Part shown: one piece after another, positions 46,105-49,779 of the stretch
Layout: each line of letters opens with the position of its first letter
Numbering within the stretch: the first letter of the stretch is position 1
From: a bacterium
GTDB taxonomy: Bacteria > Chloroflexota > Dormibacteria > Dormibacterales > Dormibacteraceae
Length of the DNA: 64,000 nucleotides
Direction of reading: 5' to 3'
Assembly: GCA_004299235.1 (NCBI GenBank)
Contig: SCQL01000033.1
Coordinates: forward strand, 62,001 to 126,000
Translations under genes and position numbers: made by a program
The notes under the pieces: model-generated
What the model saw: only the letters and a program-made list of their open reading frames with translations
Databases searched by the model: none
Told to the model about the DNA's origin: nothing

Positions 46105-46866
46105 TCAGGAGGGCACGACCTCGAAGGTCAGGCGGGCCCGCAGGCGCATCAGGGCGGCCAGCACCGGCGCTCCCAGCGCCAGCACCATGGCCACGTTGCC
46201 GGCGGCGCGAAACGTGTCGTACGCGAGGGACGTGAGCACGTAGAAGCGGCCGAAGTGAAGCCACGCCGTCGCCGGCGCCATCCCCGGCAGCCAGCCCAGG
46301 CTTGGATTGCCGCGGTAGACCGGGATCCAGTCGGTGATGTCGAGCAGAGCCCCGACGACCCAGCCCATGATCGCGCCGACCGCCGCCAGGACGACGACCT
46401 CACGCCAGCCCGGCGTGCGGTGGTGAGGGCGCGCCCAGCGTCCGCCCAGCCCGGCCGCAACCCCGACCCAGCCGACCGCGAACACCTGGTACGGCACCCA
46501 CGGCCCCATGCCGCCGCCCGCGAGCGCCGAGACCAGGATCGACAGCGCTCCGGCCAGGAAGCCGAACGAGGTGCCGAAGACGAAGCCGGCGCACAGCACC
46601 AGGAAATAGATCGGGCTGAAGCCGCCGATGCCCTCGATCACCGCCAGCCGCAGCGCCGTGTCGATGGCCGCGATCGCGGCCAGCAGGGCCACGGCGCGCG
46701 AATCCAGCTGACGCGTCCCGGCCTCCACCAGGAACAGGCCCGCGACGCAGGCCAGGCTCAGAGTCCAGGCCGGCGTGCCGGCCGGCAGCCCGCTGCCGAA
46801 AAACGGCCAGCAGAAGAGGGCCAGGCCCACGAGCGACACCAGGCCCACCGGGAGCTCGCGCCTCAC
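46105..46866 (-). CDS. ECF transporter S component, probably corrinoid-specific
   Basis: 253 residues with about seven membrane helices. IGGFSPIYFLVLCAGFVFGTSFGFLAGALSILVSALAGGGMGPWVPYQVFAVGWVGVAAGLGG is the S-component pattern, with the substrate-facing Gly/Ala helices. The GTG start overlaps the ATPase stop (GTGA). It is the last gene of an operon headed by a cobalamin riboswitch, so vitamin B12 or a precursor is the likely substrate; the protein fold alone would not show that. Family relatives are often annotated only as ECF S component. Confidence 0.85.
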   Translation of the reverse strand: MRRELPVGLVSLVGLALFCWPFFGSGLPAGTPAWTLSLACVAGLFLVEAGTRQLDSRAVALLAAIAAIDTALRLAVIEGIGGFSPIYFLVLCAGFVFGTSFGFLAGALSILVSALAGGGMGPWVPYQVFAVGWVGVAAGLGGRWARPHHRTPGWREVVVLAAVGAIMGWVVGALLDITDWIPVYRGNPSLGWLPGMAPATAWLHFGRFYVLTSLAYDTFRAAGNVAMVLALGAPVLAALMRLRARLTFEVVPS

Positions 46867-48218
46867 GCCCTCACCGCCCCCGGCGTCATCTCCGTGATCC
46901 CGCCGCCGGCGACGGTGACCACGCGATCGGCCAGCGCGGTCCGCAGATGGGCGTCGTGAGTCGCCAGCACGACAGCTGACCCCGCGTCGCGCAGCCGGGC
47001 CACGAGCCGGACCAGCGCGGCGCGGGCGGCGGCATCCATCCCGCGCGTTGGCTCGTCCAGCAGGACCAGGTCGGGCCGCCCCGGCAGCACGGCGGCGAGT
47101 GCCGCCCGCTGGCGCTCCCCGCACGAGAGGTCGCGAGGGTAGCGGTCGGCGACCGCCAGCAGGCCGAGCTCCTGAAGAACCGCCTCGGGGACCTCGGACT
47201 CTTCAGCCCGTCGGAGCGTGAGCCTGACCTCGGCGCGCACCGTCGGGCGGTGGAGCAGCGCGGTCGGGTTCTGCGGCAGGTAGGCGATGCGGCCAGGCCG
47301 CCGTTCGACCCGTCCGGCCAGCGGCGGCAAAGCGCCGGCGATCAACCGCAGCAGGGTCGTCTTGCCGCCGCCGTTCGGCCCGCTGAGCGCCACCACCTCG
47401 CCCGCGGCTCCGGCCAGGTTGACGCCGTCCAGGACCACATGCCCGGCGAACCCGGCGCTGACACCGGCGAGCGACCAGGCCTCGGCTCGGCGGCCGGTGC
47501 GCCGTCCAGGCGCGACCGGCGCGGCAGGCAGGGTCCACGACGCGGGATCCGCCGGCTCGGCCCGGCCCTCTTCGACCCGGATGAGCGCGGACGCAACCCT
47601 CAGCAGCGGCTCGAGCCGGTGCTCCGAGATGACGACCGCGCAGCCGCGCCCGGCCAGGCTGGTGGCGGCCTCGAGCACCATCGCCGCGCCGTCGGGGTCC
47701 AGCTGAGAAGTGGGCTCGTCGAGCACCACCAGCTGAGGCCTCATGGCCAGGGCCGAGGCCAGGGCCACGCGCTGGCGTTCACCGCCGCTGAGGGTCCTGA
47801 CGCTGCGCCCCGCCAGGTGCGACACACCCGCCGCATGCAGAGCTTCGTCGACGCGCCCGGCCATCTCGCGGGGCGGCATCCCGATGTTTTCGAGCCCGAA
47901 CGCGACCTCACGGTCGACGGCGTCGTACACGGTCTGCAGCTCCGGATCCTGGAACACGAAGCCCACGGTGCGCGCCAGCCGGCGGGTGGGGGTTTCGATG
48001 ATGTTCATGCCCGCGACCTCGGCTGTGCCCGCGATGCGACCGCCGTGGAAGTGTGGGACGAGGCCGTTGAGAACGCGGAGCAATGTCGACTTGCCGCCGC
48101 CGGATGACCCGGCCACCACCGTCAACCCGCCTTCGAGCGCCAGGCTCACCTCGCGCAGCGCCGCACCTGCCGCGGCCGGGTACCAGTACGACAGGCGGCT
48201 TAAGCGCGCGACCGCCAC
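46863..48218 (-). CDS. ECF transporter ATPase, two ABC domains fused (EcfA1-EcfA2)
   Basis: 451 residues with two complete ABC cassettes in one chain. First half: Walker A GSSGGGKST, Q-loop FVFQDPELQ, signature LSGGERQRVALA, Walker B LVVLDEPTSQLD, EHRLEPLL. Second half: Walker A GPNGGGKTT, signature LSCGERQRAALA (Cys in place of the second Gly), Walker B LVLLDEPTRGMD, ATHDAHL. Fused EcfA pairs occur in several ECF systems. The GTG start at 48218 overlaps the EcfT stop by 19 bases. It energises uptake together with EcfT and the S component. Confidence 0.92.
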   Translation of the reverse strand: MAVARLSRLSYWYPAAAGAALREVSLALEGGLTVVAGSSGGGKSTLLRVLNGLVPHFHGGRIAGTAEVAGMNIIETPTRRLARTVGFVFQDPELQTVYDAVDREVAFGLENIGMPPREMAGRVDEALHAAGVSHLAGRSVRTLSGGERQRVALASALAMRPQLVVLDEPTSQLDPDGAAMVLEAATSLAGRGCAVVISEHRLEPLLRVASALIRVEEGRAEPADPASWTLPAAPVAPGRRTGRRAEAWSLAGVSAGFAGHVVLDGVNLAGAAGEVVALSGPNGGGKTTLLRLIAGALPPLAGRVERRPGRIAYLPQNPTALLHRPTVRAEVRLTLRRAEESEVPEAVLQELGLLAVADRYPRDLSCGERQRAALAAVLPGRPDLVLLDEPTRGMDAAARAALVRLVARLRDAGSAVVLATHDAHLRTALADRVVTVAGGGITEMTPGAVRA

Positions 48219-49027
48219 ACCAGCACCGGAGTGAAGAGAAGCAGGCAGGCCGCCAGCGGCCGGATGTCGATCGCCGGGAATGCGAGCGTCGGGTATGCAA
48301 ACCAGTCGGCGGCCCAGCCGGCGGCGCGGGCGAGCACGAAGATGGCGAGCGCAAAAGCCGAGGCGGCGACCAGGACCCAGTCGGATCTCCGCAGGCGCGT
48401 CGATTTGACCGCGGTCCGCGGCCCGGAGCCAAAACCTCGAGCCTCCATCGACTCGGCCAGCTGGATCGATCCCTCGACGCTGGTGAGCACCACAGGGACG
48501 ACGACCTCGGCCCACGAACGAGGGCCGCGCGGCCGCCATCCGCGCAAGCGTTGCGCCTCGCTGACCTGCACGAAAGACGCCGCCACCGCAGGGACGAGGT
48601 TGAGGGAGGCGGCGATGGCGGCACCGGTGCGCGACAGCGCGGCCGGTAACGCGTCCATGACCTCGTAGGAGGCGAGCATCAGCGAGAACGGGGCGGCGGC
48701 CGCGATGGCGGCGGCGATGGTGATGCCCCCCGACATCCCATATGCCAGCGCCTCGAGCGTGTAAGGCCCGCCGACGCCTGGGATCTGGGTAGGAAGCGTG
48801 AACAGGACCGTGGCGCCGAGATGCGCCGAGACGAAATTCAGCAGCGTGGCGAACGCCGCGATCAGGGTCACGCCCACGAGCAAACCGCGCATCCGCGGCA
48901 GTCCGGCGCCGGCGGCCAGCGCTGCGAGCGCCGCCGCCAGCACCATCACTTTGTAGGCCGGGTTCGTGGTCACCAGGACGATGAAGAGGCTTGCGGCCGA
49001 CCAGGCCGCCACCGCCCTTGCGTTCAC
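48200..49027 (-). CDS. ECF transporter T component (EcfT)
   Basis: 275 residues, about six membrane helices. EAQRLRGWRPRGPRSWAEVVVPVVLTSVEGSIQLAESMEARGFGSG holds the two cytoplasmic Arg-containing coupling helices (the A-R-G motif in ESMEARGFG is diagnostic). The start is GTG at 49027, eight bases after the lipoprotein's stop; no strong ribosome binding site, so coupling to the upstream gene is likely. Ends ten codons inside the start region of the ATPase gene. Confidence 0.9.
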   Translation of the reverse strand: MNARAVAAWSAASLFIVLVTTNPAYKVMVLAAALAALAAGAGLPRMRGLLVGVTLIAAFATLLNFVSAHLGATVLFTLPTQIPGVGGPYTLEALAYGMSGGITIAAAIAAAAPFSLMLASYEVMDALPAALSRTGAAIAASLNLVPAVAASFVQVSEAQRLRGWRPRGPRSWAEVVVPVVLTSVEGSIQLAESMEARGFGSGPRTAVKSTRLRRSDWVLVAASAFALAIFVLARAAGWAADWFAYPTLAFPAIDIRPLAACLLLFTPVLVWRSRA

Positions 49028-49035
49028 GGTGCGGC

Positions 49036-49527
49036 TCAGCTCTCCTTGGCCAGCGGCGGGGGCGCCGGCGACTGAGCGGACTGCTGGACGTAATGCCAGC
49101 CGAGCGCTTCCTTGTCGTGCAGGTTGACCTGCGTGTATCCGGTTTGGGCGCCGGCCCAAGCACCCGCCGTCTCGATGAACAGCGCCCAGTAGGGCTGGTT
49201 CTGCGGGAAGCACTGGCTGTACTGCGCCGGCTCGCTGTCGATCTGGCAGACGGCCTTGCCGAAGCTGAAGACCTGGGCCTGGTAGGCGACCCCCGACTGG
49301 TCCATCAGGGCCTGGCCGTCGATGGTGTCGCCGCTGAAGCCCACGCACTTTTGCAGCGTCGTGCCGGAAAGGTGCTCGACCACGACGTACGCGTGGTGGG
49401 GCGCGCTCGCGTTGATGCACGAGCTCGTCGGGGTCGCCGAAGCCGTCGATGACGAGCTGCCGCAGGCGGTGACGGCGCCCAGGGCAAGGACCAGTGTCGC
49501 GCTGGCCCCAATCAGATGGTTGCGCAC
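49036..49527 (-). CDS. DUF4430/transcobalamin-C-like lipoprotein, candidate B12-capture protein
   Basis: 163 residues. The signal ends in the lipobox AVTAC (Cys22), so it is anchored outside the membrane. The mature part resembles the DUF4430 domain, which is related to the C-terminal domain of intrinsic factor/transcobalamin: CQIDSEPAQYSQCFPQNQPYWALFIETAGAWAG, ending in LHDKEALGWHYVQ where family members have the G-D...W-Y motif. Paired cysteines (four in the mature part besides the lipid one) could form disulfides. The start is GTG with GGAGG eight bases upstream, next to the hairpin under riboswitch control. Cobalamin binding is inferred from the riboswitch and the domain resemblance. Confidence 0.78.
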   Translation of the reverse strand: MRNHLIGASATLVLALGAVTACGSSSSTASATPTSSCINASAPHHAYVVVEHLSGTTLQKCVGFSGDTIDGQALMDQSGVAYQAQVFSFGKAVCQIDSEPAQYSQCFPQNQPYWALFIETAGAWAGAQTGYTQVNLHDKEALGWHYVQQSAQSPAPPPLAKES

Positions 49528-49540
49528 GGTGTTTCCTCCA

Positions 49541-49583
49541 GGCGGTCAGCCTTTTCCGTACGCGCCGCTGAAAGCCGACCGCC
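49541..49583 (-). promoter_or_regulatory. Hairpin next to the lipoprotein ribosome binding site (riboswitch output candidate)
   Basis: GGCGGTC (49583-49577) and GACCGCC (49547-49541) on the minus strand form a seven-base stem directly upstream of the GGAGG at 49539-49535. Switching between this and another fold could open or close the site. Confidence 0.4.
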
Positions 49584-49627
49584 AGGAGCTTCCGTGCCGT
49601 TGCGCGCGGACGGGTCGCGAGATGGGC

Positions 49628-49767
49628 GTTCAGGTCTCCTGGCTCACGGATCACCGCCCCCGTCCGCCTTCCCGAGTACCTCTCCACTCAGTGGCGTTGT
49701 CGGACGTAGGCTCCCCGCTCACAGTTGCGCGACAGCTCCGGTTTCGCACCGGATTCCCTTGATGCCG
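49628..49767 (-). ncRNA. Cobalamin (AdoCbl-type) riboswitch
   Basis: On the minus strand the conserved blocks of the class occur in order: AAGGGAATCCGGTG, the GGAGCTGTCGCGCAACTGT segment with its GCAACTGT, GCCACTG, GGGAAGG, and the B12 box GAGCCAGGAGACC near 49645-49632, ending in CTGAAC. The ribosome binding site of the lipoprotein gene lies about 90 bases further on. It should lower expression of the lipoprotein and ECF genes when cobalamin is plentiful. Confidence 0.95.
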
Positions 49768-49773
49768 TACCGA

Positions 49774-49779
49774 ATCTTA
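49774..49779 (-). promoter_or_regulatory. Probable -10 box of the riboswitch transcript
   Basis: TAAGAT overlaps the stop codon of the preceding ComB-like gene; a start about seven bases on gives an RNA beginning at the first riboswitch stem. Confidence 0.45.

Follow-up and report, generated by a model that had tools for sequence, protein, structure and literature searches.

A riboswitch-preceded operon in a Dormibacteraceae genome encodes a transcobalamin-type lipoprotein and a CbrT-like ECF transporter, a predicted corrinoid uptake unit

The 64,000-nucleotide stretch analysed here (the window; contig SCQL01000033.1 of assembly GCA_004299235.1, from a soil bacterium of the family Dormibacteraceae) contains a tightly packed operon, with all its elements on the minus strand: a cobalamin riboswitch, a lipoprotein gene, ecfT, a fused ecfA1A2 gene and the gene of the S component of an energy-coupling factor (ECF) transporter. 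We consider it likely that this is a corrinoid uptake operon, in which the lipoprotein binds a corrinoid at the cell surface and hands it to a CbrT-like ECF importer. The genes, the riboswitch, the predicted folds, the gene order, the kinship of the S component with CbrT and the B12-using enzymes of the host were all established by computation. An initial annotation, made from the DNA letters alone, had described four overlapping or abutting genes behind a cobalamin riboswitch, and coordinates and family matches confirmed this layout.

The lipoprotein and the ECF transporter

The lipoprotein gene (49036..49527, minus strand, GTG start) encodes 163 residues with a lipobox (..AVTAC followed by G, lipobox cysteine Cys22) and a predicted transcobalamin-type beta-grasp (SLBB) domain at approximately residues 41–150. 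The lipobox was conserved in the Dormibacterota families f1 and f4, and Cys61, Cys94 and Cys106 were invariant among the aligned relatives. Searches of PDB sequences with the lipoprotein returned non-significant, unrelated matches only. Two sub-threshold Pfam matches, DUF3558 and Metallophos_C, were not significant and provided no identification. With the model of the SCO2322 family (NF040672) the lipoprotein scored 16.7 bits, against a curated cut-off of 85, and 26 of the 35 aligned members matched it weakly (best E 1.8e-7). As identification by sequence had failed, it was the predicted fold that decided the identity of the protein.

The AlphaFold2 model, built from the 35-sequence alignment, had a mean pLDDT of 84, rising to about 95 in the domain core, and was composed of two strands, a helix (71–78), a hairpin (82–87/90–96) and three further strands. 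In Foldseek and VIA-align comparisons it was closest to 3u7z, a bacterial protein which we take to be a DUF4430 protein, and to the beta domains of transcobalamin, haptocorrin and intrinsic factor (Z of 10.6–11.9 over 96–102 residues, root-mean-square deviation 2.4–2.8), the next entry having a Z of 6.3. The beta domains of the three vitamin carriers, taken alone, gave Z values of 10.6–11.7 over 97–102 residues, and a Z above 10 was reached by transcobalamin-type chains and 3u7z only. Burroughs et al. define the transcobalamin clade by a hairpin after the helix, which is prominent in the B12 contacts of transcobalamin (PMC1796856). The model has this beta-hairpin inserted after its helix, and the hairpin was among the better conserved elements of the protein, with a consensus near QxFSFGxAVCQID. 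The proposed relationship with the human B12 carriers was thus upheld by a confidently predicted fold standing far above the next one; the refuting outcome named in the initial annotation, a lipoprotein folding as something unrelated, was looked for, and the predicted fold was a transcobalamin-type beta domain.

The lipoprotein gene is separated by 8 bp from ecfT (48200..49027, minus strand), the GTG start of which was set by comparison with relatives. EcfT, a transmembrane coupling protein of the CbiQ family with 275 residues, scored 33.1 bits with PF02361 (cut-off 25). The ecfT gene overlaps by 19 nt the gene for the fused EcfA1–EcfA2 ATPase (46863..48218, minus strand, about 451 residues), a single protein with two complete ABC domains, as two ABC_tran stretches were found, each with Walker A, signature and Walker B motifs. 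This gene in turn overlaps by 4 nt that of the S component (46105..46866, minus strand, 253 residues), which passed the PF12822 cut-off narrowly (31.7 bits for 30.7). The ECF transporter is therefore complete, as had been annotated. It was also said to differ from BtuFCD, and indeed neither the FecCD permease nor Peripla_BP_2 was present among the Pfam matches of the four operon proteins, both being encoded elsewhere in the genome.

The S component was compared with all PDB chains by means of a family profile built from Dormibacterota and Actinomycetota sequences. The top match, with an E-value of 3e-8, was 6fnp_A, which belongs to ECF-CbrT, a characterised vitamin B12 transporter, as its S component. 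FolT came next (0.0086), and a profile restricted to Dormibacterota gave 3.4e-7 for CbrT and 0.093 for FolT. In sequence, the protein is thus nearer to CbrT than to the S components for other vitamins, and a grouping with another vitamin family, the second outcome named beforehand as damaging, did not appear. The predicted fold was that of an S component whose core is preceded by two extra helices at the N-terminus. Solved S components matched the model with Z values of 8.8–12.9, and 6fnp_A (Z 9.1) was not the first of them; as the fold comparison does not separate the S components and does not single out CbrT, the substrate assignment relies on the sequence profile and on the context.

Riboswitch, gene order and distribution

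The riboswitch aptamer core (49632..49759, minus strand) scored 97.5 bits with RF00174, for which the gathering score is 31.5. The match covered model positions 45–169 of 189 and included the GCCACTG B12 box and GAGCCAGGAGACCT. The riboswitch itself is thus not in question, and its conserved core is present, but the earlier mention of all conserved blocks was slightly too strong, as the outer flanks of the model (positions 1–44 and 170–189) were unaligned. A homologous riboswitch occupies the equivalent position in relatives. Between the aptamer and the start codon, a hairpin that buries the Shine-Dalgarno sequence (49528..49598, minus strand; CTCC..GGCGGTC..GACCGCC..GGAGG) was strongly conserved in the 13 sequences compared. 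Compensatory changes were seen at three pairs among them, and the covariation was weak because the leader is so conserved. No U-run is present, which makes translational control likelier than termination, and the hairpin is probably a translational expression platform. The whole leader segment 49528–49632 was conserved beyond the needs of a simple Shine-Dalgarno hairpin, with the block CCGTCCGCGCGCAACGG found in 13 of 13 sequences; an alternative structure or a second element is possible there.

Of 61 genomes, comprising the source genome and its relatives, 43 had the lipoprotein, and in 31 of the 40 loci read from these genomes the gene of the beta domain adjoined ECF genes. An upstream cobalamin riboswitch on the same strand accompanied 30 of these 31 ECF-adjoining loci, the remaining one (L054) ending at a contig edge. 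Given these two frequencies, the arrangement is more than chance. Eight further loci from named contigs all had the riboswitch (8/8), so that the co-occurrence with B12 riboswitches in many genomes, which the initial annotation had proposed as support, was found. The order riboswitch-beta-T-A-S recurs among the relatives, and the named ones carrying the operon were mostly recorded as metagenome-assembled genomes of Chloroflexi or Candidatus Dormiibacterota. The operon of the window is flanked upstream by a 2-phosphosulpholactate phosphatase gene in the same orientation and downstream by a convergent pyridine-nucleotide oxidoreductase gene, and is therefore well delimited. At one locus, L038 in genome G009, the riboswitch, the beta lipoprotein and a divergent S component were present, but neither ecfT nor ecfA adjoined them, and a CobU-like gene lay nearby; the genes of the energising module may be at another place.

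The search was extended to Actinomycetota with 198 genomes drawn from the phylum of an actinobacterial relative. Beta proteins of the SCO2322 type were present in 29 of them. Twenty of these loci were read: T, A and S genes stood alongside in all 20, a detectable alpha gene in 16, and a riboswitch over threshold in 7.

The alpha toroid and the corrinoid economy of the host

A separate gene for an alpha/alpha toroid with a signal peptide and squalene-cyclase-like repeats occurs in the Dormibacterota families f2 and f3 and in the majority of the actinobacterial loci. It precedes the beta gene and, at loci with a riboswitch, follows that riboswitch. The toroid profile matched squalene-hopene cyclase with an E-value of 2e-24 and intrinsic factor with only 0.012. 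Judging from sequence and position, the neighbouring alpha and beta genes appear to be the transcobalamin domain pair in the form of two genes. The alpha and beta proteins of f2 and f3 carry a hydrophobic anchor at the C-terminus, in some cases with an LAxTG-like motif, and many of the actinobacterial proteins look similar. At L053:262-2508, and also at L049, the alpha toroid was doubled, with two toroid domains in one chain of ~750 residues. The family of the window has no alpha toroid gene. In the tree of the S components, the Dormibacterota without alpha formed two separate groups, and the actinobacterial loci formed one clade on the other side. The tree is most simply read as two putative losses of alpha, both in groups with a lipoprotein-type beta protein; one loss followed by a regain could also account for it. 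There is experimental precedent for both the split and the beta-only forms, since the alpha and beta domains of human transcobalamin, expressed separately, assemble with cobalamin, and the isolated beta domain binds cobalamin and cobinamide (PMC5599065).

The source genome spans about 2.87 Mb on 100 contigs and is 96.8% complete; searched one family at a time, it was found to encode the B12-dependent MetH and methylmalonyl-CoA mutase. CbiC, a step common to both corrin-ring pathways, was not found in it and was present in only 2 of 41 sampled genomes. With B12 users present and CbiC absent, the host probably cannot make the corrin ring and lives on scavenged corrinoids. A second riboswitch-linked cluster of the same genome comprises btuF, btuC, btuD, cobQ (cobyric acid synthase) and cobA (corrinoid adenosyltransferase). 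The riboswitch upstream of these five genes (locus L152, C2:95000-104000) was weaker, with 38 bits, and the BtuC-like protein of the cluster is longer at its N-terminus by about 100 residues. Among 25 genomes compared within the family, presence of the ECF-lipoprotein operon tended to go with absence of BtuC and vice versa, a strong BtuC match being found in 2 of the 15 genomes with the operon and in 7 of the 10 without it (Fisher p 0.009, uncorrected for kinship). The idea of the ECF unit as a replacement of BtuFCD is weakened by the source genome, which has both.

Lipoprotein paralogues located outside ECF operons (L031, L032, L033, L037, L040, L044) adjoin btuC, btuD, cobA, cobU and cobS-like genes where the neighbours were read, these corrinoid salvage genes being on the opposite strand. 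The lipoprotein family is therefore tied to corrinoids independently of the riboswitch of the operon. Several paralogues were flanked by the same 2-phosphosulpholactate phosphatase gene as the operon of the window.

Proposed function, alternatives and known systems

From these observations we infer that the lipoprotein binds a ligand and delivers it to the S component, and in which direction the operon is regulated. In the proposed model, low cellular cobalamin would open the riboswitch leader and allow expression of the operon. The lipoprotein, anchored at the surface and by its predicted fold a transcobalamin-type beta domain standing alone, would then capture a corrinoid outside the membrane and pass it to the CbrT-like S component, the import being driven by EcfT and the fused two-domain EcfA ATPase. 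A broader proposal, to which we give an even chance, would place this unit in a larger family: a split bacterial transcobalamin, with surface-anchored alpha and beta proteins closing round the corrinoid and feeding a CbrT-type ECF transporter, would be widespread in Actinomycetota and Dormibacterota and would have been reduced, in the family of the window, to a beta-only lipoprotein feeding the S component, an arrangement that would amount to an ECF importer having its own extracellular binding protein.

Several observations weigh against the uptake model. The Pfam DUF4430 model (PF14478) matched neither the lipoprotein (E <= 1), nor its 35 relatives (E <= 0.1), nor any protein of the genome, and the DUF4430 label first given to the protein fails by sequence. 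Identity to transcobalamin is ~11%. No alpha homologue was detected in the source genome, which leaves the lipoprotein as the beta half of an alpha-plus-beta carrier, and its affinity for corrinoids may therefore be modest. The riboswitch-linked BtuFCD means that the ECF unit is not the sole corrinoid importer of the host, and contact between the lipoprotein and the S component is hypothetical. Finally, ECF-CbrT of L. delbrueckii functions without any carrier protein (PMC5997447). This last point, together with the BtuFCD of the host and the paralogues that stand beside btuCD-cobA-cobU without ECF genes, favours another view, in which the ECF transporter imports corrinoids and the lipoprotein hands nothing over, acting instead as a corrinoid store on the cell surface, as a receptor for corrinoid that other proteins release, or as a partner of another importer such as BtuFCD. 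We regard this as rather unlikely, because in 31 Dormibacterota loci ecfT directly follows the beta gene, with the same order in Actinomycetota, and conservation of this kind usually marks functional partners.

Two other substrates were considered. EcfT matches CbiQ, the ATPase matches cbiO models and cobalamin riboswitches also control cobalt transporters (PMC3766115), so that the unit might import cobalt for B12 synthesis. Cobalt transport was rejected as highly improbable, as neither CbiM nor CbiN is encoded in the operon, CbiC is absent, the S component matches CbrT by sequence, and the transcobalamin-like fold has no known role in cobalt uptake. Transport of another vitamin, such as folate or riboflavin, was hinted at by weak matches of the S component to the riboflavin S family PF07155 (28.8 bits) and to FolT structures (E 0.009); the E-value of CbrT is better by five orders of magnitude, and a cobalamin riboswitch and a transcobalamin-type partner are in the same operon, so that this reading is as improbable as cobalt.

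The association of transcobalamin-like domains with ECF genes was already predicted in 2007, when Burroughs et al. proposed transcobalamin-like SLBB proteins encoded with CbiO/CbiQ as B12 scavengers (PMC1796856). These systems resemble the present one in that genes for an ECF-type ATPase and EcfT accompany that of a transcobalamin-type beta-grasp domain, secreted or anchored, in hosts that usually lack B12 synthesis. Those named are mainly from low-GC Gram-positives, planctomycetes and some archaea, and their alpha/alpha toroids are often fused to the SLBB domain in one chain, whereas here alpha and beta are separate genes in the relatives and the window has a beta-only lipoprotein, with a domain too divergent for the DUF4430 model. 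In the passages considered, the 2007 account names neither a riboswitch nor a CbrT-type S component, and the half-carrier form with both was not found described. ECF-CbrT of L. delbrueckii (PDB 6FNP, PMC5997447) shares a CbrT-related S component, EcfT, two EcfA domains and predicted corrinoid import. There, one module is common to eight predicted S components, and the nrdJ-cbrS-cbrT-pduO cluster lacks such a lipoprotein (PMC5997447); here, a single operon comprises a dedicated module, in which EcfA is fused and the S component has two extra N-terminal helices, together with a cobalamin riboswitch and an extracellular carrier-like lipoprotein. ECF modules preceded by riboswitches are known in acI Actinobacteria (PMC5301498).

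In the SCO2321 and SCO2322 families of Streptomyces (NF053823 and NF040672), annotated only as membrane protein and family protein, an alpha toroid and a beta gene likewise stand beside ECF T, A and S genes in Actinomycetota. Their Streptomyces-type beta domain (L124-L130) appears circularly permuted relative to that of the window: the C-terminal part (model 107–156) comes first and the N-terminal part (about 27–99) second. Compared with a profile made from relatives that lack the permutation, 4 of 4 SCO2322-type proteins tested showed this reversed order, their second half being weak by itself; the order was also seen in genome G196. Human transcobalamin, intrinsic factor and haptocorrin share the beta-domain fold, including the post-helix hairpin, and the toroid partner seen in the relatives; the bacterial form differs in its two separate genes or beta alone, its membrane anchoring, its low identity and its extra conserved cysteines. 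The open-access literature, searched for SCO2320-2325, bacterial transcobalamin and Dormibacterota with cobalamin, yielded no experimental work on the unit, nor a description of split alpha and beta genes with a CbrT-like S component, of the divergent beta-only lipoprotein, or of their extent in Dormibacterota and Actinomycetota. BtuFCD also brings corrinoids to the cytoplasm with a binding protein outside the membrane, but its permease and binding protein have unrelated folds and it forms a separate second system in the source genome.

According to current descriptions, ECF transporters do without an extracellular binding protein, since the S component itself binds the substrate. If the proposed function is true, a conserved surface protein folded like the human B12 carriers, encoded beside a CbrT-type ECF transporter, would break this rule and would provide a tractable bacterial model for the origin of intrinsic factor and transcobalamin. 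With the two-gene form, a natural system would be at hand in which to test directly whether the alpha and beta halves assemble around B12, and the beta-only form raises the question of the minimum that a carrier needs. A function would also be suggested for the two uncharacterised Streptomyces families, SCO2321 and SCO2322.

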